18,683 nucleotides of DNA from an uncultured bacterium (GTDB lineage: Bacteria; Planctomycetota; UBA1135; GCA-002686595): NCBI GenBank assembly GCA_902826945.1, contig CADEGS010000009.1, positions 1 to 18,683 on the forward strand, read 5' to 3'. Below the pieces are notes generated by a model. It did not search any database, was not told the DNA's origin, and saw nothing but the letters and a program-made list of their open reading frames with translations. The position numbers were made by a program, and so were the translations under genes. Position 1 is the first letter of the stretch. Each line of letters begins with the position of its first letter. Below are positions 1,912 through 18,683 of this stretch, piece by piece.

Positions 1912-2730
1912 TCAGAAGAGCCACGAGATGCCGAACGCGGCGACGACGTCCGCGGCGTCGTCGTCGAGCCCGAAGTCCGCCGAGAGGTCGAGCTGCAGGC
2001 GGTCGAGCGGCTGCCACACGAGGCCCGCGCCGAGGTAGGCCTGGCCGGCGACGTGGCGCAGGCCGGGGAAGAGCGTGCCCTCGGCGTAAGCGCTCCAGCG
2101 CGCGGCGAGCGGGTGCGAGACGAGCGCGGCCAGCGTGGCGGCGGTCGCGTCGGGGGCGTCGTCCGCGGGCAGGTGCGAGACGCCGGCCAGCGTCTGCAGC
2201 CAGAACGCCGAGCCCAGATCGCGCCCGTGCGCGAGGAAGGCCGAGAGGCCGGGGTCGCCGGACGTGAAGCCGTCCTCGCCGCTGGGCAGCCGCAGCGAGC
2301 CGAGCAGCGCCAACGGTCCGCCCGCGAGCGGCTCGAGCGCCAGCTTCGCGCCGAGCTCGACGTCGCCGAAGCCCTCGTCCTGCGCGACGCCCGGGCCGCG
2401 CTCGTCGCGCACGTCGGTCCAGGTCGGTAGGGTCGCGCGCAGCTCGACGCGCTCGCTCAGCCCGTAGCGCACGGCGACGGGCAGGCTCCAGGCGCGCAGC
2501 TCGTCGCCCGCGTCGCGCGTCACGCTCAGCGCCGGCAGGCCGGCCTCGACCTGCAGGTGCTCGGGCGGGACGAGCGTGGGAGCGAAGAGGAAGCCCGGAC
2601 GGTCGGTCGAGATCGGCGGGACATCGCCGCCGCCGGGCGCCGTGCAACCGGATGCCGCAGCGCACAGGAGCGCCGGCGCGAAGGGTCCGAGAGGATTGCG
2701 GGGAACCTTTCCGCGGCGAGAGGTGCTCAT
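1912..2730 (-). CDS. Outer membrane beta-barrel protein, TDRP-motif transporter family (MetA-pathway-like)
   Basis: This 272-residue protein starts with a basic, then hydrophobic leader (FAPALLCAAASGC). The leader could be cut by signal peptidase I or, at ASGC, by the lipoprotein peptidase. The mature part opens with STDRPGFLFAPTLVPP, matching the TDRP...VPPG signature of the transporter/MetA-pathway-of-phenol-degradation family (PF13557-like). Alternating amphipathic strands follow (RYGLSERVELRATLP, GFGDVELGAKLAL, QAYLGAGLVW, LQLDLSADFGL). The last residue is Phe, the usual C-terminal signature of Gram-negative outer membrane barrels. The family is poorly characterised; members are often annotated as putative outer membrane transporters without a known substrate. 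The gene is divergent from the kdp operon across about 200 bp. Its start is the only in-frame ATG that places the leader correctly. I see no strong Shine-Dalgarno site ahead of it. Confidence 0.7.
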   Translation of the reverse strand: MSTSRRGKVPRNPLGPFAPALLCAAASGCTAPGGGDVPPISTDRPGFLFAPTLVPPEHLQVEAGLPALSVTRDAGDELRAWSLPVAVRYGLSERVELRATLPTWTDVRDERGPGVAQDEGFGDVELGAKLALEPLAGGPLALLGSLRLPSGEDGFTSGDPGLSAFLAHGRDLGSAFWLQTLAGVSHLPADDAPDATAATLAALVSHPLAARWSAYAEGTLFPGLRHVAGQAYLGAGLVWQPLDRLQLDLSADFGLDDDAADVVAAFGISWLF

Positions 2731-3022: not shown

Positions 3023-5107
<2,085 letters not shown>

Positions 5108-5122
5108 GGCACGAGGCCTGCG

Positions 5123-5215
5123 ATGACGAACCTCCTCTACCTGCTCCTGGGCCTGGCGACCTTCGTCCTGCTCGTGATCCTGGCGCTCGTGCTCGAGCGG
5201 CCGCAGGAGGACTGA
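5123..5215 (+). CDS. KdpF-sized single-helix membrane micro-protein between kdpB and kdpA
   Basis: This ORF of 30 residues has an ATG start preceded by ACGAGG at 6-nt spacing. It encodes one hydrophobic helix (LLYLLLGLATFVLLVILALV) followed by an acidic tail, LERPQED. It begins 15 nt after the kdpB stop and ends 3 nt before the kdpA start. Its final codons contain the kdpA ribosome-binding site. Length and topology match KdpF, but the tail is not the usual ER/EAF, and a genuine kdpF already sits ahead of kdpB. It may be a second KdpF-like subunit, a separate small regulator of the pump, or partly a translational-coupling leader for kdpA. Its place in the operon, start signal and composition argue that it is expressed; the function is inference. 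Confidence 0.75.
   Translation: MTNLLYLLLGLATFVLLVILALVLERPQED
5205..5211 (+). promoter_or_regulatory. Strong kdpA ribosome-binding site within the preceding micro-ORF
   Basis: AGGAGGA, a near-perfect Shine-Dalgarno sequence, overlaps the Gln-Glu-Asp codons of the micro-ORF and lies 7 nt before the kdpA ATG. It fixes the kdpA start and couples its translation to the micro-ORF. Confidence 0.75.
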
Positions 5216-5218
5216 ACC

Positions 5219-6907
5219 ATGGAAACCCTCTGGCTCGTGATCGCGATCGTCGGCGGCAGCGCGCTCCTCTCCTGGCCGCTGGGCCGCTACCTGCGCTGGG
5301 CCATGGACCCGGACGCGAGCTGCGGAGCGCGGCGGGCGCGGCTGGAGGCGCTGATGGAGCGCGTCTCCGGGCCCTTCGGCGCGGCGCAGCAGGGCTGGAA
5401 GGCCTACGCGCTCTCCCTATTGGCGTTCAACGCCGTGCTCTTCGCCGTCAGCTTCGCCTTCCTGGCGCTCCAGCAGCACCTGCCGCTGAACCCCGACGGC
5501 AAGGGCGCGCTCGAGGGCAGCCTGCTCTTCAACACCGCGGCCTCGTTCACCACGAACACGAACCTGCAGCACTACTCGGGCGAGGTCTCGCTGAGCGCCT
5601 TCTCGCAGCTCTTCGCCCTGATGTGGCTGCAGTTCGTGTCGGCCGCGACCGGCCTTGCGGCGCTGGCGGCGCTGGCGCGCGCCCTGGCGGGCCGGCGCGA
5701 GATGGGGAACTTCTTCATCGACCTGCAGCGCGCCGCGTTCCTGGTGCTCTTGCCGCTGGCGCTCATCGTGGCGGTGATCCTGGTGCTGCTCGGGGTGCCG
5801 ATGACGCTGTCGGGTGCGGCGCACGCCACCACGCTCGAGGGCGTGGCGCAGACGATCGCGCGCGGCCCGGTGGCGGCTTTCCTCGCCATCAAGCAGCTCG
5901 GCACGAACGGCGGCGGCTTCTTCGGCCCCAACAGCACCCACCCGTTCGAGAACCCGAGCTTCTGGACGAACGCGATGTCGATGGCCGCGATCCTCCTGGT
6001 CCCGATGGCGAGCGTGTGGATGTTCGGCCGCATCGTGGGCCGGCCGCGGCACGCCGCGACGATCTTCGCCGTGATGCTCGCGCTCCTGTGCGCGAAGATC
6101 GGCGGCGCGGTGTGGTTCGAGTCCGCGCCGACCCGGGCCTTCGCCGGCCTGGAGGCGATCGAGCAGACCGGCGGCAACCTGGAGGGGAAGGAGCTGCGCT
6201 TCGGCGCTGCCGAGGGCAGCGGGCCCTTGTGGGGCGTGCTCACGACCTCGACCAGCAACGGCTCCGTCGGCGCCATGCACGACAGCCTGAACCCCATGAC
6301 CGGGCTGATGCCGCTCCTCGGCATGTGGCTCAACGCCACCTTCGGCGGGGTGGGCGTCGGCATGATCAACATGTTCGTCTACATCGTGCTGGCCGTGTTC
6401 CTGGCCGGCATGATGGTGGGGCGCACGCCGGAGTACCTGAACCGCCGCATCGAGGCGCGCGAGATGAAGCTCGCCATCCTGACCGTGTTCGTGCACGGCC
6501 TGCTCATCCTGGTGCCCACGGCGCTCTTCGCGGTCACCTCCTGGGGCCGCGACACGCTCGCCAACCACGGCCCGCACGGCTTCAGCGAGATCCTCTACGA
6601 GTTCAGCTCGGCGAGCGCGAACAACGGCTCGGGCTTCGAGGGCCTGGGCGACAACACCGTCCCCTGGAACGTCGCCACGGGGCTCGTGATGCTCCTGAAC
6701 CGCTACGTCCCGATCCTCCTGCCGCTGGCCATCGCCGGCTCGCTGGCCGCCAAGCGCCGCACGGCCCAGACGGCCGGCACGCTGAGCGTGCAGGACGCGA
6801 CCTTCGGCGTGATGCTCGTGGGCACGATCCTGCTGATCGGCGCGCTGACGTTCTTCCCGGCGGCGGCCCTGGGGCCGATCGCCGAGCACTTCCTCTTCCT
6901 CTCCTGA
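5219..6907 (+). CDS. kdpA: KdpA, K+-binding and translocating subunit
   Basis: KdpA forms the K+ selectivity path of the Kdp pump and is related to KtrB/TrkH-type channel proteins. The 562-residue product (E. coli: 557) contains all four pore-loop signatures. They are SFTTNTNLQHY near residue 110, GTNGGGFFGPNSTHPFENP near 227, TSTSNGSVGAMHDSLNPMTG near 342 and ASANNGSGFEGLGDN near 465. About ten hydrophobic segments surround them. The ATG is chosen because of the AGGAGGA site 7 nt upstream. The gene follows the micro-ORF with a 3-nt gap and precedes kdpC. No key residue appears to be lost. Confidence 0.97.
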   Translation: METLWLVIAIVGGSALLSWPLGRYLRWAMDPDASCGARRARLEALMERVSGPFGAAQQGWKAYALSLLAFNAVLFAVSFAFLALQQHLPLNPDGKGALEGSLLFNTAASFTTNTNLQHYSGEVSLSAFSQLFALMWLQFVSAATGLAALAALARALAGRREMGNFFIDLQRAAFLVLLPLALIVAVILVLLGVPMTLSGAAHATTLEGVAQTIARGPVAAFLAIKQLGTNGGGFFGPNSTHPFENPSFWTNAMSMAAILLVPMASVWMFGRIVGRPRHAATIFAVMLALLCAKIGGAVWFESAPTRAFAGLEAIEQTGGNLEGKELRFGAAEGSGPLWGVLTTSTSNGSVGAMHDSLNPMTGLMPLLGMWLNATFGGVGVGMINMFVYIVLAVFLAGMMVGRTPEYLNRRIEAREMKLAILTVFVHGLLILVPTALFAVTSWGRDTLANHGPHGFSEILYEFSSASANNGSGFEGLGDNTVPWNVATGLVMLLNRYVPILLPLAIAGSLAAKRRTAQTAGTLSVQDATFGVMLVGTILLIGALTFFPAAALGPIAEHFLFLS

Positions 6908-6926
6908 TGCCCCCCGAGGTCGATCC

Positions 6927-7499
6927 ATGAGAGCCCTCCTCGCGAGCTTGCGCGTCGTGGCCGCGACGCTCGCCGTGTGCGTCGTGGGGTACACGTCCCT
7001 GATCCTGGCCGTCGCCCAGGTCTTCGTGCCGGCGAGCGCGAGCGGCTCGCTGGTCACCGGCCCGGACGGCGCGATCGTCGGCAGCGCCCTGATCGCGCAG
7101 GCCTTCACGCGTCCGGAGTACGTCTGGCCGCGCCCCTCCGCCGTCGACTACGACGCAGCCGGAGCGGGCGGCAGCAACAAGTCGCCCACCAGCCCGGAGC
7201 TGACGGAGCGTGCCATCGCGCTGATCGAGCGCTACGGCGCGACGCCCGCGCGCCCGTTGCCGCCGGAGCTCGTCACCGCGTCGGGCGGAGGCCTGGACCC
7301 GCACCTCAGCGCGCGCGCGGCGCGCTGGCAGGCGCAGCGCGTGGCCGCGGCGCGCGGCCTGCCGCTCGGGCGGGTGGAGGCCCTGATCGAGGAGCACGCC
7401 TTCGCGCCCGGCGGGGACCTGACGCCCCAGCGGCTGGTGAACGTGCTGGAGCTGAACCTGGCGCTGGACCGGGAGTCGAGCGCGCCGTCCGCGCGCTAG
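6927..7499 (+). CDS. kdpC: KdpC, accessory subunit of the K+ pump
   Basis: This 190-residue protein has the length of E. coli KdpC. One N-terminal membrane helix (residues ~8-33) is followed by a periplasmic domain with the family blocks GSALIAQAFTRPEYVWPRPS, AGGSNKSPTSPEL and ASGGGLDPHLS. KdpC is needed for assembly and affinity of the KdpFABC complex. A GAGG ribosome-binding site lies 7 nt before the ATG, and the gene begins 19 nt after kdpA. It completes the structural part of the operon. Confidence 0.96.
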   Translation: MRALLASLRVVAATLAVCVVGYTSLILAVAQVFVPASASGSLVTGPDGAIVGSALIAQAFTRPEYVWPRPSAVDYDAAGAGGSNKSPTSPELTERAIALIERYGATPARPLPPELVTASGGGLDPHLSARAARWQAQRVAAARGLPLGRVEALIEEHAFAPGGDLTPQRLVNVLELNLALDRESSAPSAR

Positions 7500-7527
7500 G
7501 GACTCCCCTTCCCGCGGCGGCCCCGCC

Positions 7528-10211
7528 ATGGCAGAAGAGCCCCGACCGAGCCCCGAGGCGATGCTCGCGCGCGCCACGGCCGAGGAGCAGACGCGGCAGC
7601 GCGGCAAGCTGACGATCTTCTTCGGCATGGCACCCGGGGTCGGCAAGACCTACGCGCTGCTCGAGAGCGCCCAGGAGCAGAAGCGCGCCGGCACGGACGT
7701 CGTCCTGGGCTGGGTCGAGACGCACGGTCGGCGCGAGACCGAGGCGCTCACGCGCGGGCTCGAGCGCCTGCCGCCGCGCGCGGTCGACTACCGCGGGCTG
7801 CGCCTGCTCGAGTTCGACCTGGACGCGGCGCTGCGGCGCAAGCCGGCGCTGATCCTGCTCGACGAGCTGGCGCACACGAACGCCGCCGGCCTGCGCCACG
7901 CGCGCCGCTGGCAGGACGCCGAGGAGCTGCTGGCGGCCGGCATCGACGTCTACACGACGCTCAACGTGCAGCACGTCGAGAGCCTCAACGACGTCGTGGC
8001 CCAGATCACCGGCGTCCTCGTGCGCGAGACCGTGCCCGACTCGATCGTGGACCAGGCGCACGAGATCGAGCTCGTCGACCTGCCGCCCGACGACCTGCTG
8101 CGTCGCCTCGAGGAGGGCAAGGTCTACGTGCCGGCGCAGGCGCGCCAGGCCATGCAGGGCTTCTTCAAGAAGGGCAACCTGCTGGCGCTGCGCGAGCTGG
8201 CGCTGCGGCGCACGGCCGAGCGCGTCGACGCGCAGGGCGCCGAGTGGCGCCGGGCGCAGGGCGTGGCGGAGCCCTGGAGCGCGCGCGAGCGCGTGCTCGT
8301 CGCCGTCGGGCCCGCGCCGAGCTCGGCCGACGTGATCCGCGCGGCCTACCGGCTGGCCGCGCGCCTGCGCGCGCCCTGGATCGCCGTCTCGGTCGAGACG
8401 CCGGCCTTCGACCAGCTCGCCGCGAGCGAGCGCGAGCGCGTCGGCGCCAACCTGACCCTGGCGCAGCGCCTGGGGGCCGAGACCGTGGTCGTGCGCGGCG
8501 AGCGCGCCGGCGAGGAGCTCCTCGCGCTGGCGCGCGAGCGCGGCGCGACCAAGATCCTGGTCGGCAAGCCCGGCGCGGCGCCCCGCTTCTGGCGCCGCTC
8601 GCGCGGTCTGGTGCCCGAGCTCGTGCGCGGCTCGGGCGCGATCGACGTGCTCGTGACCTCCGGCGAGCAGGGCCTCGGGGAGGACGAGCGCCGGCCCGCC
8701 GTGCGCCGCCCCGCGCAGCCGCGCAGCTACGCCTGGGCGACGCTCTCGGTGCTGCTGTGCTCGGCCGTGTGCTTCGCCGCCAGGCCGTTCCTCTCGCTGG
8801 CCGACCAGGCCATGGTCTACCTGCTCGGCGTGCTGGTCGTCGCCAGCCGCCTGCCGCGGCGGCCGGCGCTCGTCTCGGCCATCCTGAGCGTGCTGGCGCT
8901 CGACTTCCTCTTCGTCGCCCCGGCCTACACCCTGGCGGTCGACGAGCTGCGCTACCTCGTCACGTTCCTCGTGATGCTCGTCGTGGCGCTGCTCGTCAGC
9001 ACGTTCACCGTGCGCCTGCGCGAGCAGGCCGAGGAGGCGCGCGCGCGCGAGCGGCGCACCGCGTCGCTCTACGCCATGAGCCGGCAGTTCGTGATCGAGA
9101 CGGCCGTGGCCGAGATCGCGAGCACCGCCACGCGCCACGTCAGCGAGCTCCTGGGCGTCGAGACGGTGGTGCTGCTCGCCGACGCCTCCGGCCGCCTGGC
9201 GCCCTGCGGCGGCGCGAGCTCGCGCCTGGCGCGCTCGGAGAGCGAGCTCGCCGTCGCGCGCTGGGCCTTCGAGAACGGGCGCCTGGCCGGCCACGGCACC
9301 GACACGCTGCCCGGCGCGGAGGCGCTGTTCATCCCGCTGGTCGGCAGCGGCGGCCATCTGGGCGCGTTCGGCGTGGCGCTGGCGCGCCGCGACGTGCCGC
9401 CGACGCCCTCGGAGTGGCAGATCGTCGAGACGTTCGTGGCGCAGACGGCGCTGGCGCTCGAGCGCGCGCTGCTCGTCGAGCGCGCCGCGGCCGCGCGCGT
9501 CGCGATGGAGACCGAGCGCACGCGCAGCGCGCTGCTCTCGGCCGTCTCGCACGACGTGCGCACGCCGCTGGCCTCGATCACCGGCGCGGCCAGCACGCTG
9601 GCGGCCGAGCCCGAGCCCGCGCCGGCGGCGCGGCGCGAGCTGGTCGAGACGATCGGCGAGGAGGCGCAGCGCCTGACGCGCCTGATCTCCGACCTCCTGG
9701 ACCTGACGCGGCTCGAGTCGGGCGACCTCGAGGTGAGGAAGGAGCCCTGCCCGCTGGAGGAGATCGTCGACTCCGCCGTGCAGCGCCTGGCGAGCGAGCT
9801 CGCCGGGCGGCCGCTCGAGCGCTCGCGCCCCGAGGACGTGCTCGTGGCACCGGTCGATCCGGTGCTGCTGGAGCAGGTGCTGATCCACCTGCTCGAGAAC
9901 GCGGCCAAGTACAGCCCGGCGGGGAGCCCGATCGAGATCCGCCTGTCCGCCCAGGGGGACGAGGCGCTGATCGACGTGCTCGACCGCGGCCCGGGGCTGC
10001 CGCCCGGCGAGGAGAGCCGCGTCTTCGAGCGCTTCTACCGCGCGGCCGACGGTCACCGCGCGCTGGGCACGGGCCTGGGGCTCACGATCGCCGAGGCGAT
10101 CGTGCGCGCGCACCGCGGCAGGATCGAGGCCACGAACCGCGAGGGCGGCGGCGCGCATCTGCGCGTCGTGCTGCCGCTCGGCGAGGCGCCGCGCGCGCCG
10201 GGGGCGGCGGC

Positions 10212-10215
<4 letters not shown>
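7528..10215 (+). CDS. kdpD: KdpD, K+/turgor-responsive sensor histidine kinase
   Basis: This is a full-length 895-residue KdpD (E. coli: 894). The N-terminal KdpD domain carries a Walker A GMAPGVGKT (33-41), a Walker B LILLDELAHTN near 108-118 and the conserved TTLNVQHVESLND block. A universal-stress-protein-like domain follows (~250-370), then a four-helix DUF4118 membrane region (~400-498) and a GAF-like segment (~510-650). The HisKA motif SHDVRTPLASITG has phospho-acceptor His675. The C-terminal ATPase domain shows LLENAAKYSP, DRGPGLP and GTGLGLTIAEAIV. KdpD phosphorylates KdpE when K+ is scarce. It starts 28 nt after kdpC, and its TGA overlaps the kdpE GTG (GTGA). The ribosome-binding site is weak, suggesting read-through coupling from kdpC. 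Confidence 0.96.
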
Positions 10216-10910
<695 letters not shown>

Positions 10911-11120: not shown

Positions 11121-12155
11121 ATGTCCGAGAAGCTCCAGCAGCAGTTCGAGAGGATGGCCCGCCAGTACGCCGACCTGAAGGCGTACTTCGCGGCCGAGGG
11201 GGGGAGCGCCGACGAGCTCGCCGTCCTCGAGAGCGTGGGCAAGAACCTCGTCGGCCTGCGCCAGAAGGTCGGACGGGGCTCGCCGGCGGACGGCTCGCAG
11301 GCCGAGGCGGGTCCGCTCGGCGGCGCGCGCGTGGAGGCCGGTCCCGAGCGCAAGCAGACGCGCCCGCGCACGGAGACGCCGGGCTACAAGGAGCCGAGCT
11401 GGGCGCGGCCATCGACGAGCGTGTCCGACAAGCCGGTCCAGGTCGCCAGCCTCTTCTTCAAGACGAAGGAGGCGGCGCTGGACGGGCGCGACGAGGCGCT
11501 CCTGGCGCAGCTGGCCAAGGCCTACGCGCCGTACGCGAAGCGGCCGGGCGCGACGCAGGGGCTGAAGGGCGAGGTCGTCGGCTACGCGGACCCGCGGCCC
11601 TCCTCGGGGCCGGACAACCCGAAGCTCTCGGCGGAGCGGGCGAAGGCGGTGGCGGAGCGGCTGACGCAGCTCCTCGCCGCGGAGAGCGGCCTCCCCGCGA
11701 GCAGCTTCGCCATCGCCGTCACCGCGGCCGGCGCCCTGCCGGCGCCGAAGATCGACGGGCCCGAGCTCGAGGCGAACTCGCTCGCCACGCTGCGGCGCGC
11801 CGACGTCTTCCTCGAGGGCGGCATCCTGCCCGAGCCGAAGGTCGTCCCGCCGCCCGCGCAGCCCGCGCCGGACCCGATGGTCCTGCTCGAGGTCATGAAC
11901 CTCGGCATGCAGGACGCCTTCCTCGGAGAGCCCTACCGCGGCAAGCAGTTCGAGAAGGCCAAGCCCTTCAAGGACAGCTACGACAAGGGCTGGAAGCGCG
12001 GCCTGCAGGCGCGCACCGAGAACCCGACCTCGATGCGCGGCATCAGCAAGGAAGAGCGCGAGGAGTACGACCGCCAGGAGCGCCGCCGCAAGCTCCGCAA
12101 GCAGAGCAGGGAATACCTCGAGACCTGGTGGAGCATCCGCCTCCCGGGCGACTGA
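11121..12155 (+). CDS. OmpA-like-domain protein without signal peptide
   Basis: The start ATG has AGAGG 8 nt upstream. The 344-residue product opens with a charged amphipathic helix ([22 protein letters not shown]) and a Gln/Pro/Arg-rich linker to ~105. It then has an OmpA-C-like domain (~105-235). In that domain [32 protein letters not shown] and [13 protein letters not shown] align with the family's GHTD...LSxxRAxxV...RRVEI pattern; Asp157 occupies the TD position, with Ala for Thr. After a proline-rich stretch ([12 protein letters not shown]), a highly charged C-terminal region (~260-344) is rich in Lys, Arg and Glu and ends in WSIRLPGD. No hydrophobic segment exists, and the upstream in-frame region to the TAA at 11019 encodes none. 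OmpA-type domains normally bind peptidoglycan outside the cytoplasm, so location and role are unclear. Confidence 0.7.

Positions 12156-12197: not shown

Positions 12198-12202
<5 letters not shown>
12181..12202. terminator. Hairpin overlapping the stop codon of the leftward operon
   Basis: GGTGAGCG and CGCTCACC form a perfect 8-bp stem with a 6-nt loop in the 42-bp convergent gap. The stop codon of the response regulator (12198-12200) lies inside the stem. There is no U-tract. A bidirectional terminator or transcript-end structure shared by both converging transcripts is plausible. Confidence 0.4.
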
Positions 12203-13585
<1,383 letters not shown>

Positions 13586-13589
<4 letters not shown>

Positions 13590-15091
13590 GCGGCCCTCTC
13601 CGCGCGCGGCAGGCGCACGGTGAAGCGCGCGCCGCCGTGCGCGCCGGAACCGGCCTCGATCGCGCCGCCGTGGCGATCGACGATCGCCGCCACGAGCGAG
13701 AGGCCGAGCCCGGTGCCCGCCGCCGGCCCCTTGGTCGTGAAGAACGGGTCGAAGATGCGTTCGGCGTTGCTCGATGCGATGCCAGCGCCGTGGTCCTCGA
13801 CCTCCCACACCTGGCCCGCACCGTCCTGGCGCGCGCTGAGCCGGATGGGCTGGCCCGGCGGGCTCGCATCCTTCGCGTTCAGGATCAGGTTCAGGAGCAC
13901 CTGCAGCAGCTCGCCGGCGTTGCCCTCGAGCGGCGCCAGCTCGTCGGCGAGCGCGACCTCGAGCCGCAGGTCCTTCTCCGCCAGCACGTGCTTGGTCAGG
14001 AGTGCCGCCTGGGAGAAGAGCGAGCCGACGTCCACCCGCGCGACCTCGCTCGAGTCGGCGCGCGCCAGGTTCAGGAGGCGCGCGGTGATGCCGCGCGTGC
14101 GGTAGGCCTCGGAGACGATCGTCTCCAGGTACTCGCGCGCCTCGGCCGGATCCACGGCGCCCTTGTCCATGCGCCGCAGCAGCGCCTCGCCGCAGGAGGC
14201 GATCGACGCCAGCGGGTTGTTCACCTCGTGCGCCACGCCGGCCGCCAGCACCCCGACGTCCGCCAGCCGCGCGGCGCGCACGAGCTCGCGGGTGCGCGTC
14301 TCGACCTGGCCGGCCAGGTCGGCGTGCGAGCGCCCCAGCTCGTCGGCCATCGCGTTGAAGGCGCGCGCCAGGTCGCCGATCTCGTCGCGCCGCTCGAACG
14401 GGCTGCGATGCGCGAGCTCGCCTCGGCGCAGGCGCAGGGCGCTCTCGCGCAGCGCCTTGATCGGGGCCAGCACCGTGCGGAAGACGAGCAGGAGCCCGGA
14501 GGCGCCGACCAGCGCGATCACGCTCAGGGCCGCCGCCACGTAGCGGCGCGTGTTCCCCATGCGTCGCTCGATGTCCGAGTGCACCAGCGCGGACTCCTGG
14601 CGCGTCTCGTCCGCCAGCACCGCCGCGCGCCGTCGCGAGCGCTCGATCGCCTCCAGCACGTTCACCTGGGAGGCGGCGGGATCGTCGGCCAGCCAGGCCT
14701 CGATCGCGTCCAGGCCGCGGCCCACGTCGCTCATCAGGCTGCTCTCGGTGCGCTGGTGCTCCACGCGCGAGGGATCCCTGTCGTGCGGCGTGTCGTCCAG
14801 GCCGTCGAGCAGCTCGCGCGCCTCGAGGATCTGCCCGTCGGCGATCGTGTCCAGGCGCGAGCGCCCGGGCTCCTCGCGCGCGCCCTCGACCATCGCGGAC
14901 AGCGCCTCGATGCGGGTCAGGAGCTTGTTCGCCAGCGCCGACTCGCGCGTCTCCTCGAGCAGGCGGTCGGCGTCCAGGCGGATGCGGTGCACCTCGAACA
15001 GGACGCTCGCGCAAACGACCGTCGGCACGCCGATCAAGAGCCCCTGCAGGAGCACGAAGCGGCGTCCGAGCGAGTGGCTGGTGCGGAGCAT
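13586..15091 (-). CDS. Membrane sensor histidine kinase, NtrB/ZraS type, partner of the sigma-54 activator
   Basis: The 501-residue kinase has TM1 at ~11-33 and a ~150-residue, largely helical extracytoplasmic region (34-183). TM2 (~184-206), a HAMP linker (to ~257) and a coiled segment follow. The dimerisation motif [13 protein letters not shown] has phospho-acceptor His288, and the ATPase domain has [16 protein letters not shown] and GTGLGLSLV. The HEVNNPL form of the H-box is typical of kinases paired with NtrC-family regulators. The periplasmic part has a four-helix-bundle feel rather than a PAS fold. The ligand is unknown; an envelope or exported-compound signal is inferred from the neighbouring exporter. 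It starts 9 nt after the flavoprotein gene and overlaps the regulator gene by 4 nt. Confidence 0.93.
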
Positions 15092-15100
15092 GCGCAGAGT

Positions 15101-16411
15101 CTACGCCGGGCGTCCCTCGCCGACGCGCGCCCCGGCGCCCTCCCTCGGGCGCGGAAGCCGGACCGCGGACGGCGCCGGATCGCTCGGCGAGGCGAGCGGG
15201 GCGAGCGCCGCCAGCCAGGTGGCCGGGTCGAGCAGCGCGCGCGGGCGCACGCCGCAGCCGGTCATGCCGACCAGGAGGTCGGTCAGGCGCGGCCGCGCGC
15301 CGAGCAGCGCCAGCACGCCCGAGGCGAGCGCGGGATGGCGCAGGCCGCGCTGCAGGAGGAAGCCCAGCGCGCGGCGGTGCGCGAACTCGCGGCGGCGCCC
15401 GCGGGCGTACCCGTCGAGCGCGGCGCGGTCGGTGCGGCCCGCGCGCAGCGCGCCGTCGAGCGCGTCGGCCAGCAGGCTCGCCCCGCGCATCGCGAAGAAG
15501 GTGCCCTCGCCCGTCAGCGGGTCGACGTAGCCGCAGGCGTCGCCGAGCAACGCGGCGCCGTCGAAGGTCTGCGCGCTCGTCGTGCTCGCCAGCGGCCCGC
15601 AGGCGCGCACGGGCGCGCCGGGCACCAGCCGCACGCGCTCGCGCAGCTCGGGCGCCAGGGCCAACCGCTCCTCGAGCAGCGCGGCGAGCCGGGCGTGGCC
15701 GCGCGGCAGCGCGTCGCGCCCGACGACCAGGTTCATCGTCGCCAGCCGCGGCCCCACGGGCGCGATCGCGAGGTAGCCGCCCGGGACGAAGTGCACCTCG
15801 GCGTGGCGCTCGAGGTCGCTGGGCTCGACGCGCGTGGAGAGCGCGTAGCGCCGCAGCCAGGGCACGCGCCGCCACACGCCGAGGGCGCGCGCGACGCGGC
15901 TGCCGAGCCCGTCGGCGCCGACGGTGAAGCGCGCGCGCAACTCGAGCGTCTCGCCGGCCGGGTCGCGCACGCGCGCGCCGAGCACGCGGCCGTCGGGCGC
16001 GCGCAGGAGCTCGGACAGCGCGTGTCCCTCCAGCAGCCGCACGCCGTCGGCGCGCTCCGCCGCGCGCACCGCCAGCTCGTCCAGCACCTCGCGCGGCACG
16101 GCCAGCCCGTGCTCGTACGCCAGCGCGGCGCGCGCGACGCTCCCGTAGCGCCCGCTCGCGCGGCGGCCGTGGCCGAAGAGCCGCAGGCTCTCGATGCGCC
16201 GTGCGCCGCGCTCGAGGAGCGGCGCCACGAGGTCGAGCTCCTCCAGGAGCGGCAGGCATTCGGGCGCCAGGAACTCGCCGCAGGGCTTGGCGCGCGGGAA
16301 GCGCTGGCGGTCGACGAGCGCCACCGACCAGCCCGCGCGCGCCAGGCGCAGCGCGAGGTGCGCTCCGGCCGGGCCGGCACCCGCGATCAGGACGTCGAGC
16401 TCTCTGCGCAT
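15101..16411 (-). CDS. FAD-dependent oxidoreductase, geranylgeranyl-reductase-like
   Basis: This 436-residue flavoprotein of the PHBH/geranylgeranyl-reductase superfamily has a Rossmann GAGPAG (11-16) after a short N-terminus. The cofactor-contact block PRAKPCGEFLAPE (40-51) and VGADGLGSRVARALG (164-178) follow. The second FAD motif is GDACGYVDPLTGEGTFFAM (290-308), which closely matches the family's GDAAGxxxPLTGEGI. Relatives reduce isoprenoid double bonds or oxidise or hydroxylate polyketide- and phenol-type substrates; the substrate cannot be told from sequence. The ATG at 16411 lies 25 bases upstream of the exporter's stop, so the genes overlap and are probably co-translated. Co-transcription with an MMPL exporter suggests tailoring of a lipid or secondary metabolite that is then exported. 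Confidence 0.88.
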   Translation of the reverse strand: MRRELDVLIAGAGPAGAHLALRLARAGWSVALVDRQRFPRAKPCGEFLAPECLPLLEELDLVAPLLERGARRIESLRLFGHGRRASGRYGSVARAALAYEHGLAVPREVLDELAVRAAERADGVRLLEGHALSELLRAPDGRVLGARVRDPAGETLELRARFTVGADGLGSRVARALGVWRRVPWLRRYALSTRVEPSDLERHAEVHFVPGGYLAIAPVGPRLATMNLVVGRDALPRGHARLAALLEERLALAPELRERVRLVPGAPVRACGPLASTTSAQTFDGAALLGDACGYVDPLTGEGTFFAMRGASLLADALDGALRAGRTDRAALDGYARGRRREFAHRRALGFLLQRGLRHPALASGVLALLGARPRLTDLLVGMTGCGVRPRALLDPATWLAALAPLASPSDPAPSAVRLPRPREGAGARVGEGRPA

Positions 16412-18435
16412 GGCTCGATGTCGTCGCGGGCGACCGGGCGCGCGCGCGCGAGGTCGGGAAGGAGCAGCAGGGCGGGCAGGAGCACGAGGTCGCACAGGAG
16501 CGCCAGCACGATCGTCAGCGCGCACAGCGCCGCGAACTCGACGGTCGTCGTCAGGCGGCCGGCCAGGCCGGCGGCGAAGCCCAGCGTCAAGACGACGCTG
16601 GTGATCACGATCGCGCGGCCGCAGTGGGAGAGCGCGTCTTCGATCGCGGCGGCGGCCGCGAGGCCGCGCGCGCGCGCGCCGCGGTAGGCGTGCAGGAAGT
16701 GGATCGTGTCGTCGACGATCAGCCCCAGGAGCACGGTCGCGATCATCGCCGTCGCGACCGACAGCGGGCGGCCGGCGAGCGCGAGGCCTCCTTGCAGCGC
16801 GATGCAGGGCAGCGCGTTCGGGACCAGCCCGAGCAGCCCCAGCCGCCACGAGCCGAGCGCCGCGGCCATCGCCAGCCAGAGCAGCCCGAGGATCGCGAGG
16901 ACCCCGCGTCGCTGTCCGTGCACGAGCGCCTCGGAGTCCTGCGCGACCGCGACCGCGTTGCCGCAGGCCCGCGCGCCGGCGAAGCCCGCCCGCGCGGCGT
17001 CCTCCTCGACGCGCTCGAAGAGGCGCGCGCGCTGCGAGGTGCCGCCGGAACGCAGCAAGATCGTCGCCAGCATCCAGCCGTCCGGCGAGCGCCGCGGCGG
17101 CCCGGCGAGCGAGACGACCAGCGGCTCGGCCGCGACCGTGCGCGCCAGCTCGCGCGCGGCGAGCGGGGAGGTCGGCGTCTCCTGCGGCGGCAGCAACAGC
17201 TCGAACGTGTCCGTCGCGCCCAGGTGCGCCGCGATGCGTCCGGTCTCGACGCGGAACGGATGGCCGGCGGGCAGGATGCGGCTCGGGTCGGTGTCGACAC
17301 GGATCGAGAGCGCGCGCCAGCCGAGCAGCACGCCGGCCGCCGCGGCGCTCGCCGCCAGCCAGGGCACCGCGCCGCGCAGGAACGCGACGTGGCGCGCGGG
17401 CAGACGCCCGCGGCGTGCGCGCCGCTCGGGGGCGGCGGCCGGCGGCGGGAAGAGCCGCATCCAGCTCGGCACGATCGCGACCGTCCACGCGAGCGTCAGC
17501 ACGACGCCCAGCGCCGCCAGCCAGCCGAAGCGGCCGACGGCGGGGATCGCGCTCGGCACGAGCGCCAGGAAGCCCGCCACGGTGGTCAGCGTCGTGTAGA
17601 CCATGGGCCGCGCCAGCGCACGGATCGCGAGGCCCGGCGCGGCGTCGGGCGCGACGCCCTCGGCCACGAGCGCGCGGTGGCGCTCGACCAGGTGCAGCGC
17701 GCCGGCCACGCCCACGGTCAGCACGACCGGCGCGAGCAGCGAGGAGACGGGGTCGAGCGCGAGCCCGAGCGCGTGCTCGATGCCGCCCGTCCACAGCACG
17801 GCTCCCAGCCCGGGCAAGAGCGCGGCGACGACCGGCGCGAACGAGCGGTAGACGGCGAGGAGCAGGAGCGCGAAGGCGGCCAGGATCATGGGCACGATGC
17901 GCGCCTGCTCCGCCTCGAGCGCGCGCGCGATGGCGCGCTCGCCGACGCTCGCTCCCGAGAGCGAGAGCGCGAGGCCGTCGGGCGTCGTGCGCCGCAGCGC
18001 CGACTCGACCGCACCCGCGCGGTCGGCGCCGCGCTCGACGGTCAGGGCGACGAGCGTCGCCGCGGCGTCCGAGACCGGCAGCATCTCCGCCTCCTGCACG
18101 CCGGGGAGCGCGCGCGCGCGCTCGACCCAGGCGCCGACGGCGGGAGGCTCGAGACCGGCGGCGGGCGCGAGGTCCCGCTCCGCATCGCCGCGGTCGCTCG
18201 CGGCGGCCGACCCCCGCGTCCCGCCGCGCGGCTCGAGCAGGGCCAGCAGGGTCTGCGTCTCCCCGAAGAGGCTCTCGCGCGCCGCGCCCGCCGCGGCGGC
18301 CGCGCTGGTCGGGTCCTTCATCGCGGCGTTCTCGAGGTCGAGGCGCAGCGAGAAGTGCCCCACGGCGGCCACGGCGGTCAGGACCAGGGCCGCGCCGAGC
18401 AGCACCCGGTCGACCGTGCGCGAGGTTCCTAGCAT
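16387..18435 (-). CDS. MMPL/RND-family exporter
   Basis: The 682-residue protein has two six-helix halves. TM1 (~9-27) precedes an extracytoplasmic domain (28-178), then a helix cluster at ~180-330. TM7 (~353-372) is followed by a second outer domain (373-508) and a helix cluster (511-661). The second half carries the RND-type motif GLIVDDTIHFLHAYR with Asp575/Asp576. The matching place in the first half reads VGVAGALHLVERHR (241-254), without an acidic residue. MMPL proteins export lipids, hopanoids or other hydrophobic compounds by proton antiport. The start is ATG 18435, because the first helix begins nine residues later; longer in-frame extensions have a different, Pro/Arg-rich composition. 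No Shine-Dalgarno is visible; a small hairpin abuts the ATG. It is the first gene of the leftward operon. Confidence 0.88.
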   Translation of the reverse strand: MLGTSRTVDRVLLGAALVLTAVAAVGHFSLRLDLENAAMKDPTSAAAAAGAARESLFGETQTLLALLEPRGGTRGSAAASDRGDAERDLAPAAGLEPPAVGAWVERARALPGVQEAEMLPVSDAAATLVALTVERGADRAGAVESALRRTTPDGLALSLSGASVGERAIARALEAEQARIVPMILAAFALLLLAVYRSFAPVVAALLPGLGAVLWTGGIEHALGLALDPVSSLLAPVVLTVGVAGALHLVERHRALVAEGVAPDAAPGLAIRALARPMVYTTLTTVAGFLALVPSAIPAVGRFGWLAALGVVLTLAWTVAIVPSWMRLFPPPAAAPERRARRGRLPARHVAFLRGAVPWLAASAAAAGVLLGWRALSIRVDTDPSRILPAGHPFRVETGRIAAHLGATDTFELLLPPQETPTSPLAARELARTVAAEPLVVSLAGPPRRSPDGWMLATILLRSGGTSQRARLFERVEEDAARAGFAGARACGNAVAVAQDSEALVHGQRRGVLAILGLLWLAMAAALGSWRLGLLGLVPNALPCIALQGGLALAGRPLSVATAMIATVLLGLIVDDTIHFLHAYRGARARGLAAAAAIEDALSHCGRAIVITSVVLTLGFAAGLAGRLTTTVEFAALCALTIVLALLCDLVLLPALLLLPDLARARPVARDDIEPCAESSTS

Positions 18436-18436
18436 G

Positions 18437-18454
18437 CGATCGGGGCCGCGATCG
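18437..18454 (-). promoter_or_regulatory. Leader hairpin / CCGATCGC direct repeat abutting the exporter start
   Basis: On the leftward strand CCGATCGC occurs twice, 12 bp apart, the second copy touching the ATG. The self-complementary CGATCG cores can pair as a 6-bp stem with a 6-nt loop, ending one base before the start codon. No Shine-Dalgarno replaces it. It could tune translation initiation or be a protein site. Confidence 0.35.
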
Positions 18455-18474
18455 GCCGCTCGCTCGCAGGCTGG

Positions 18475-18490
18475 AGCAGGAAGCGTGCCA
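18475..18490 (-). promoter_or_regulatory. Sigma-54 (-24/-12) promoter for the exporter operon
   Basis: Read leftward, the sequence is TGGCACG-CTTC-CTGCT. The -24 block is a perfect TGGCACG. GG and GC are exactly 10 bp apart, and the -12 block matches TTGCW at four of five positions. Transcription would begin near 18464, giving a leader of about 29 nt ahead of the exporter gene. Confidence 0.65.
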
Positions 18491-18563
18491 GGCGCGAACA
18501 GGGCAGCGGCACCCCGCCGAGGCAGACGCAGGGCGCCGGCCGGGGACGGACCTTGCAACGGTC

Positions 18564-18577
18564 TGGCACGAATGCCA
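18564..18577. promoter_or_regulatory. TGGCA-CGAA-TGCCA dyad, candidate activator (enhancer) site
   Basis: A perfect inverted repeat with 5-bp arms lies between two divergent sigma-54 promoter candidates. Its centre is about 106 bp upstream of the predicted leftward start and about 86 bp upstream of the rightward one. These are typical distances for an NtrC-type activator site. Binding by the regulator encoded at 12198-13589 is inference. Confidence 0.4.
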
Positions 18578-18630
18578 ACGCACGGGCCGGGCGAGCGGCC
18601 GCCGGCGCGCCGCGCGCCCGCTCGGACACC

Positions 18631-18646
18631 TGGCATGGATCTTGCC
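18631..18646 (+). promoter_or_regulatory. Sigma-54 (-24/-12) promoter reading rightward out of the window
   Basis: TGGCATG-GATC-TTGCC fits the -24/-12 consensus with GG and GC separated by exactly 10 bp. It mismatches only at the last base of the -12 block and at one base of the -24 block. The start would be near 18657. No start codon follows before the window ends, so the controlled gene lies beyond 18683. Confidence 0.6.
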
Positions 18647-18683
18647 TCCGGGGCTGGCGCGCCCTTGCAGCGGGGCATCCGGC

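Follow-up and report, generated by a model that had tools for sequence, protein, structure and literature searches.

A putative bidirectional sigma-54 switch between an exporter-kinase-activator operon and a type III polyketide synthase cluster in Planctomycetota

The window analysed here is an 18,683 nt stretch of planctomycete DNA, near the right-hand end of which two promoters appear to face away from one another, raising the question of which pathway they serve and which protein controls them. From the sequence, the initial annotation proposed a pair of divergent sigma-54 promoters around a central dyad, reading leftward into an operon that encodes its own activator and rightward into one or more genes outside the window, the whole forming an autoregulated switch. 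The elements, read directly, are TGGCACG-CTTC-CTGCT at 18490..18475 on the reverse strand and TGGCATG-GATC-TTGCC at 18631-18646 on the forward strand, both having the GG-N10-GC spacing along with the -24/-12 consensus. The features at this end of the window are:

18475..18490, reverse strand: predicted sigma-54 promoter of the exporter operon (TGGCACGCTTCCTGCT), scoring 16.2 bits, the highest in the window; predicted start at about 18464
18631..18646, forward strand: predicted sigma-54 promoter of the rightward operon (TGGCATGGATCTTGCC), scoring 15.5 bits; predicted start at about 18657
18664..18683, forward strand: candidate TTG start codon for the rightward gene, located 17 nt beyond the promoter in a frame open up to the window end; tentative, from sequence only

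Scanning the entire 18.7 kb window with a sigma-54 matrix having assumed weights gave exactly these two matches of at least 11 bits, pointing away from each other; in 100 shuffled windows the mean numbers of matches were 1.30 at this threshold and 0.06 at 15 bits or more. The two divergent elements of the initial annotation are thereby confirmed, by direct reading and as the sole strong matches present, and its distances of 106 and 86 bp between dyad and starts hold if +1 lies 12 nt beyond the C of the -12 GC.

Domain matches and the sequence itself likewise bear out the leftward genes as originally described, namely an exporter, a flavoprotein, a kinase and an NtrC-type regulator with an intact GAFTGA loop, the last two being coupled through a GTGA overlap of the kinase stop and activator start:

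16387..18435, reverse strand: MMPL/RND exporter of 682 aa (PF03176; relatives L001-L016)
15101..16411, reverse strand: FAD-dependent oxidoreductase of 436 aa, geranylgeranyl reductase-like type (PF01494; TIGR02032 below cut-off, both matches obtained with a piece lacking 8 N-terminal residues)
13586..15091, reverse strand: membrane sensor histidine kinase with a periplasmic helical sensor (HAMP, HisKA, HATPase_c)
12198..13589, reverse strand: NtrC-type sigma-54 activator (PF00072, PF00158, PF02954), having a receiver, an AAA+ domain with GAFTGA and a Fis-type HTH

As NtrC proper the activator falls short, scoring 399.8 bits against an ntrC equivalog cut-off of 558.6. The first 200 aa of the kinase have no significant Pfam match, and the N-terminal part is all-helical in the predicted model (mean pLDDT of 84.5 and pTM of 0.49 for the whole kinase). 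Within the periplasmic part, a D/E-P-S-x(2,3)-H motif is found in 36 of 39 kinases, that of the window included, and E46, E47, E50, H112 and E116 are invariant across 31 aligned kinases. Nearly all of the best 50 matches in a fold search with the kinase model were fragments of cytoplasmic kinase, hence the search was uninformative on the sensor; as guesses, the signal may be a metal, the state of the envelope or the lipid itself. In some of the loci an extra small gene, YceI-like by eye, lies between the flavoprotein and kinase genes (for instance 7009-7677 in L079, as oriented, and 3313-3993 in L106).

Further to the left in the window, at 3023-10910 on the forward strand, lies a kdp operon for potassium uptake, its genes running kdpB-kdpA-kdpC-kdpD-kdpE; kdpA usually precedes kdpB, so these two are swapped. 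KdpB and KdpA scored above the cut-offs, the other three being best matches below theirs. The operon is flanked by a weak OmpA-like protein (11121-12155, forward strand), below cut-off, and a Phenol_MetA_deg-type protein (1912-2730, reverse strand).

The exporter-flavoprotein-kinase-NtrC operon is conserved in Planctomycetota. The closest named homologue of the exporter is from a Planctomycetota MAG, at 53% identity, and another homologue is 86% identical. One scan of genomes with an alignment of exporters recovered 17 loci. Across the class, 47 of the 154 genomes searched contain strong matches (E up to 1e-90); the exporters in a broad sample of 294 genomes from the phylum were mostly distant. 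There were no relatives among viral contigs, and plasmids gave only partial, distant matches, all below 80% query coverage. In a tree of 45 exporters (those of 48 entries with an exporter match of over 1500 bp lacking a stop), the window groups with locus L089 with support of 100/99. This sister locus encodes P0154 (compared from residue 6 on), a protein named for Planctomycetes bacterium Pla163, a strain whose present name we take to be Rohdeia mirabilis.

In the relatives, the gene order is type III polyketide synthase (PKS), membrane methyltransferase-like protein, SAM methyltransferase, lipoprotein and YceI on one side, then exporter, flavoprotein, kinase and NtrC on the other, with individual members absent here and there. 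In 43 of 46 relatives a YceI gene is oriented away from the exporter; the exceptions are L083 and L085, whose upstream sequence is too short, and L084, where none was found. Searching with tblastn the 26 loci having at least 5 kb on the YceI side located the PKS in 25 (L010 is the exception), the lipoprotein in 25, the membrane methyltransferase-like protein in 20 and the SAM methyltransferase in 18. In the examples tested, Pfam domains support YceI (PF04264), the SAM methyltransferase and the chalcone/stilbene synthase; the names of the other two proteins are readings of the sequence: neither of two lipoprotein examples had a Pfam match, and one of two examples of the membrane methyltransferase-like protein matched DUF1295 alone, below cut-off. 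Two Acidobacteria MAGs (L007 and L013) have an exporter and divergent YceI with no sigma-54 pair in the scanned stretch, hence either the gene pair exists without the switch or these bins are mixed.

This right-hand side resembles in its make-up a five-gene operon described in "Saltatorellus ferox" Poly30, encoding a lipid/isoprenoid-binding protein, a lipoprotein, two methyltransferases and a type III PKS, the last of which yielded alkylresorcinols and methyl-alkylresorcinols when expressed in C. glutamicum (Milke et al. 2024, PMC10896814). Given the conserved operon of the relatives, and the same five-gene composition in S. ferox, the YceI/type III PKS operon is the likely target of the right-hand promoter. 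In the window this promoter most likely drives such an operon, the first gene of which, lying beyond the window end, we infer to be YceI; the rightward control anticipated by the initial annotation is thus supported by conservation in the relatives. A split of the cluster in the window's lineage, leaving the promoter to drive something else, seems distinctly unlikely: the right-hand gene does lie beyond the window end, and L010 lacks a type III PKS within reach, but L089, the sister locus, retains YceI and the PKS there, and so do 25 of the 26 loci with sufficient sequence, while the exporter (P0003) and YceI (P0121) of the closest named relative are each found on a 70,291-bp contig. Two protein searches with YceI queries, one of them listing 120 of 265 matches, gave among those listed no protein from a contig of 52,544 bp, the length recorded for the window's own exporter.

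Conservation, which the initial annotation had suggested as a check on the promoters, also bears on whether they are simply chance matches in a GC-rich region, with the operons using a housekeeping promoter. The matrix weights being assumed, and degenerate sigma-54 patterns being common in the window, lend this some substance: a looser pattern allowing two mismatches occurs seven times, against 8.07 expected, and so is not enriched by itself, hence the case depends on the strong matches and on their conservation. However, at orthologous positions both divergent elements reach at least 11 bits in 32 of 45 loci, comprising the window and 44 relatives (L083 and L085 being lost through having too little upstream sequence), compared with none of 1613 control segments; the scanned stretches were 210-601 bp long, and the controls were 350 bp segments taken elsewhere in the loci, 2.2% of which had one element on a given strand. 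Considered separately, the exporter-side element attains this threshold in 37 of the 45 loci and the YceI-side element in 36, with 13 loci below it on one or both strands. Many exporter-side elements merely equal the 95th percentile of shuffles (for instance CGGCACG-N4-GTGCT, at 11.2 bits), which makes the spacing to the start codon important. On the YceI side, 30 of 39 loci have the first in-frame start 10-15 nt beyond the element; on the exporter side, this distance is 10-16 nt in 22 of 43. Start codons cluster at 11-13 nt. A crude scan of 18380-18683 detected no sigma-70-like site, none being expected by it in any case, and all 15 of the related genomes tested encode an rpoN above cut-off. 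With the elements retained on both strands and the clustered spacing, an origin by chance is highly improbable.

With +1 set 12 nt beyond the C of the -12 GC, a spacing of 10-13 nt would separate transcript start and start codon by about 3 nt at most, which suggests that the transcripts of the relatives may be near-leaderless. The exporter ATG in the window, 39 nt beyond its element, is outside this pattern.

Between the two promoters lie the candidate sites for a regulator:

18563..18579, no strand assigned: putative regulator (enhancer) site 1, containing the dyad TGGCACGAATGCCA; 6.7 bits, at the conserved offset (index 52)
18543..18559, no strand assigned: putative degenerate enhancer site 2, retaining a TTGCAA half; 20 bp from site 1, centre to centre

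Direct reading gives a perfect dyad, TGGCA-CGAA-TGCCA, at 18564-18577, confirming the initial annotation; the exact form is rare by chance, occurring once in the window against 0.01 expected and appearing in three of 200 shuffles. The dyad was considered as a promoter in itself and rejected, as there is no GC at the required spacing.

Upstream stretches scanned in 14 relatives do not contain the exact TGGCA-N4-TGCCA form. A motif trained on 36 relatives, without the window, is instead a dyad of 15-17 bp, roughly TTGYAAGAGTTRCAA, with a summed best score of 524.9 against a mean of 244.7 for 20 shuffled and retrained sets (standard deviation 23.5, maximum 290.3); eight loci without a credible promoter pair (L007, L013, L014, L055, L073, L075, L081 and L084) were excluded, which favours this result. 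A distance of 19-22 bp separates the two top-scoring sites in 29 of the 36 loci, the value being exactly 20 bp for 19 of them. Measured from the YceI promoter, a site starts at 51-54 nt in 19 of the 36, and the window dyad starts at 52. Hence site 1, having this offset and a score of 6.7 that was equalled or exceeded by 14 of 1000 shuffles, would qualify as a regulator site by position and form, its letters having drifted. Site 2 was placed by eye, in register with the site pairs of L059 and L020, and alone scores -3.2, measured one base off the proposed register. Both are weaker than those of most relatives; the corresponding scores in L049/L089, the nearest relative, are 5.6 and 0.6. Thus paired dyads recur across the relatives at conserved spacing, the window having one site in the conserved place and one degenerate. 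Of the conservation predicted for the dyad, position and form are kept and the exact letters are not; the window dyad is probably one member of a tandem pair with a degenerate partner.

Which protein would act at these sites is suggested by the position of the activator gene. In 26 relatives, as in the window, NtrC follows the kinase in the exporter operon. A separate search of ten genomes from another branch found six with an NtrC of 52-55% identity, located 4.2-4.4 kb upstream of the match to the exporter and on the same strand as it. In these six the NtrC gene lies tail-to-tail with that of the PKS; G414 is a seventh case, having the NtrC-PKS pair on a separate contig. In all seven, the tail-to-tail gene is outside both sigma-54 operons. 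Of the other three, G011 has its NtrC on another contig, with no PKS beside it in the available piece, G410 also has it on another contig, and G014 has none at the search threshold. The linkage of NtrC to the cluster survives rearrangement, which favours the link between regulator and sites.

The sigma-54 promoters might be real and yet the tandem dyads be bound by another regulator, with the adjacent NtrC acting elsewhere. The NtrC gene is indeed detached from the exporter operon in a sub-clade, and the dyad sequence differs among clades; moreover, exact consensus sites occur off the locus too (16 of 20 matches in 26 genomes, a reversed control pattern giving six), and at the cluster in four of these genomes (G282, G314, G003 and G005). 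Nevertheless, the gene is at one or other edge of the cluster in the 26 relatives and the seven further genomes, and clade-specific HTH types accompany clade-specific sites: among 25 rows, NQIDRH occurs with ATGGCAAGAGTTACA in three loci and NK-[IL]-[RK] types pair with CGG-core sites in four, a covariation by clade that is confounded with ancestry. We consider action by another regulator unlikely, and infer that the adjacent NtrC acts at the dyads. The autoregulation originally proposed is possible where NtrC follows the kinase, as in the window and 26 relatives, but not general, since seven genomes carry the gene beside the PKS instead; autoregulation thus appears lineage-specific, not universal.

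Starting from promoter elements, dyads and a gene order that are all observed and conserved, we regard it as very likely that this region provides bidirectional sigma-54 control of a type III PKS phenolic-lipid cluster, of alkylresorcinol type, driven by the activator through tandem dyads. The sensor kinase would phosphorylate the NtrC-type activator, which would bind the dyads midway between the divergent promoters and fire both. The right-hand operon would then make the lipid, through a YceI-like binding protein, a lipoprotein, methyltransferases and the type III PKS, and the leftward operon would export and modify it by means of the RND exporter and flavoprotein; where kinase and activator are encoded within the exporter operon, as in the window's lineage, positive autoregulation would result. 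Conservation in the relatives supports the two promoters, central regulator site and rightward control of the initial annotation; its dyad, however, is probably half of a tandem pair, its autoregulation could apply in some lineages only, and the lipid pathway is an addition to it. A more speculative proposal, which we hold to be rather doubtful, is that in a planctomycete lineage the phenolic-lipid coat is a dedicated sigma-54 regulon with both transcripts essentially leaderless, its helical D-P-S-x-x-[x]-H sensor reading the envelope or the lipid.

Such a dedicated bidirectional switch is a variant on known systems. With those of NtrC, AtoC and ZraR type it shares a receiver-AAA+-HTH activator, a linked kinase, predicted sigma-54 promoters and upstream dyads; it differs in that the activator is under all three equivalog cut-offs, the neighbouring genes are others and the sensor has no named domain. 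In Azotobacter vinelandii, the alkylresorcinol genes arsABCD likewise have a dedicated activator, but this is ArpR, the transcription of which is RpoS dependent, and the abstract mentions no sigma-54 promoter (PMC4314083). The parts covered of the S. ferox paper do not describe the divergent exporter-kinase-activator half or the promoters; its main text lacks the terms 'regulator', 'two-component', 'RND', 'YceI' and 'exporter', and has 'sigma' only in a supplier's name (PMC10896814). The literature searched, which included few subscription papers, gave no account of a cluster of this kind under sigma-54 control.

The function of alkylresorcinols in planctomycetes seems to be unlike that in other producers, and a synthase mutant of S. 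maiorica grew unchanged in the medium used (PMC10896814). The conserved sensor, activator and promoter pair would tell when cells want the lipid, and the exporter, flavoprotein, kinase and activator are four further likely genes of the pathway; a single reporter region would give a direct test of the switch. A role for sigma-54 in controlling the bacterial exterior has been proposed (Francke et al. 2011, PMC3162934), in a text that, as far as covered, has no 'planctomycet', 'Rhodopirellula', 'polyketide' or 'resorcinol'. A phenolic-lipid switch fits its theme of lipids, lipoproteins and transport, and the pathway would thus join those through which sigma-54 is proposed to control the cell surface.
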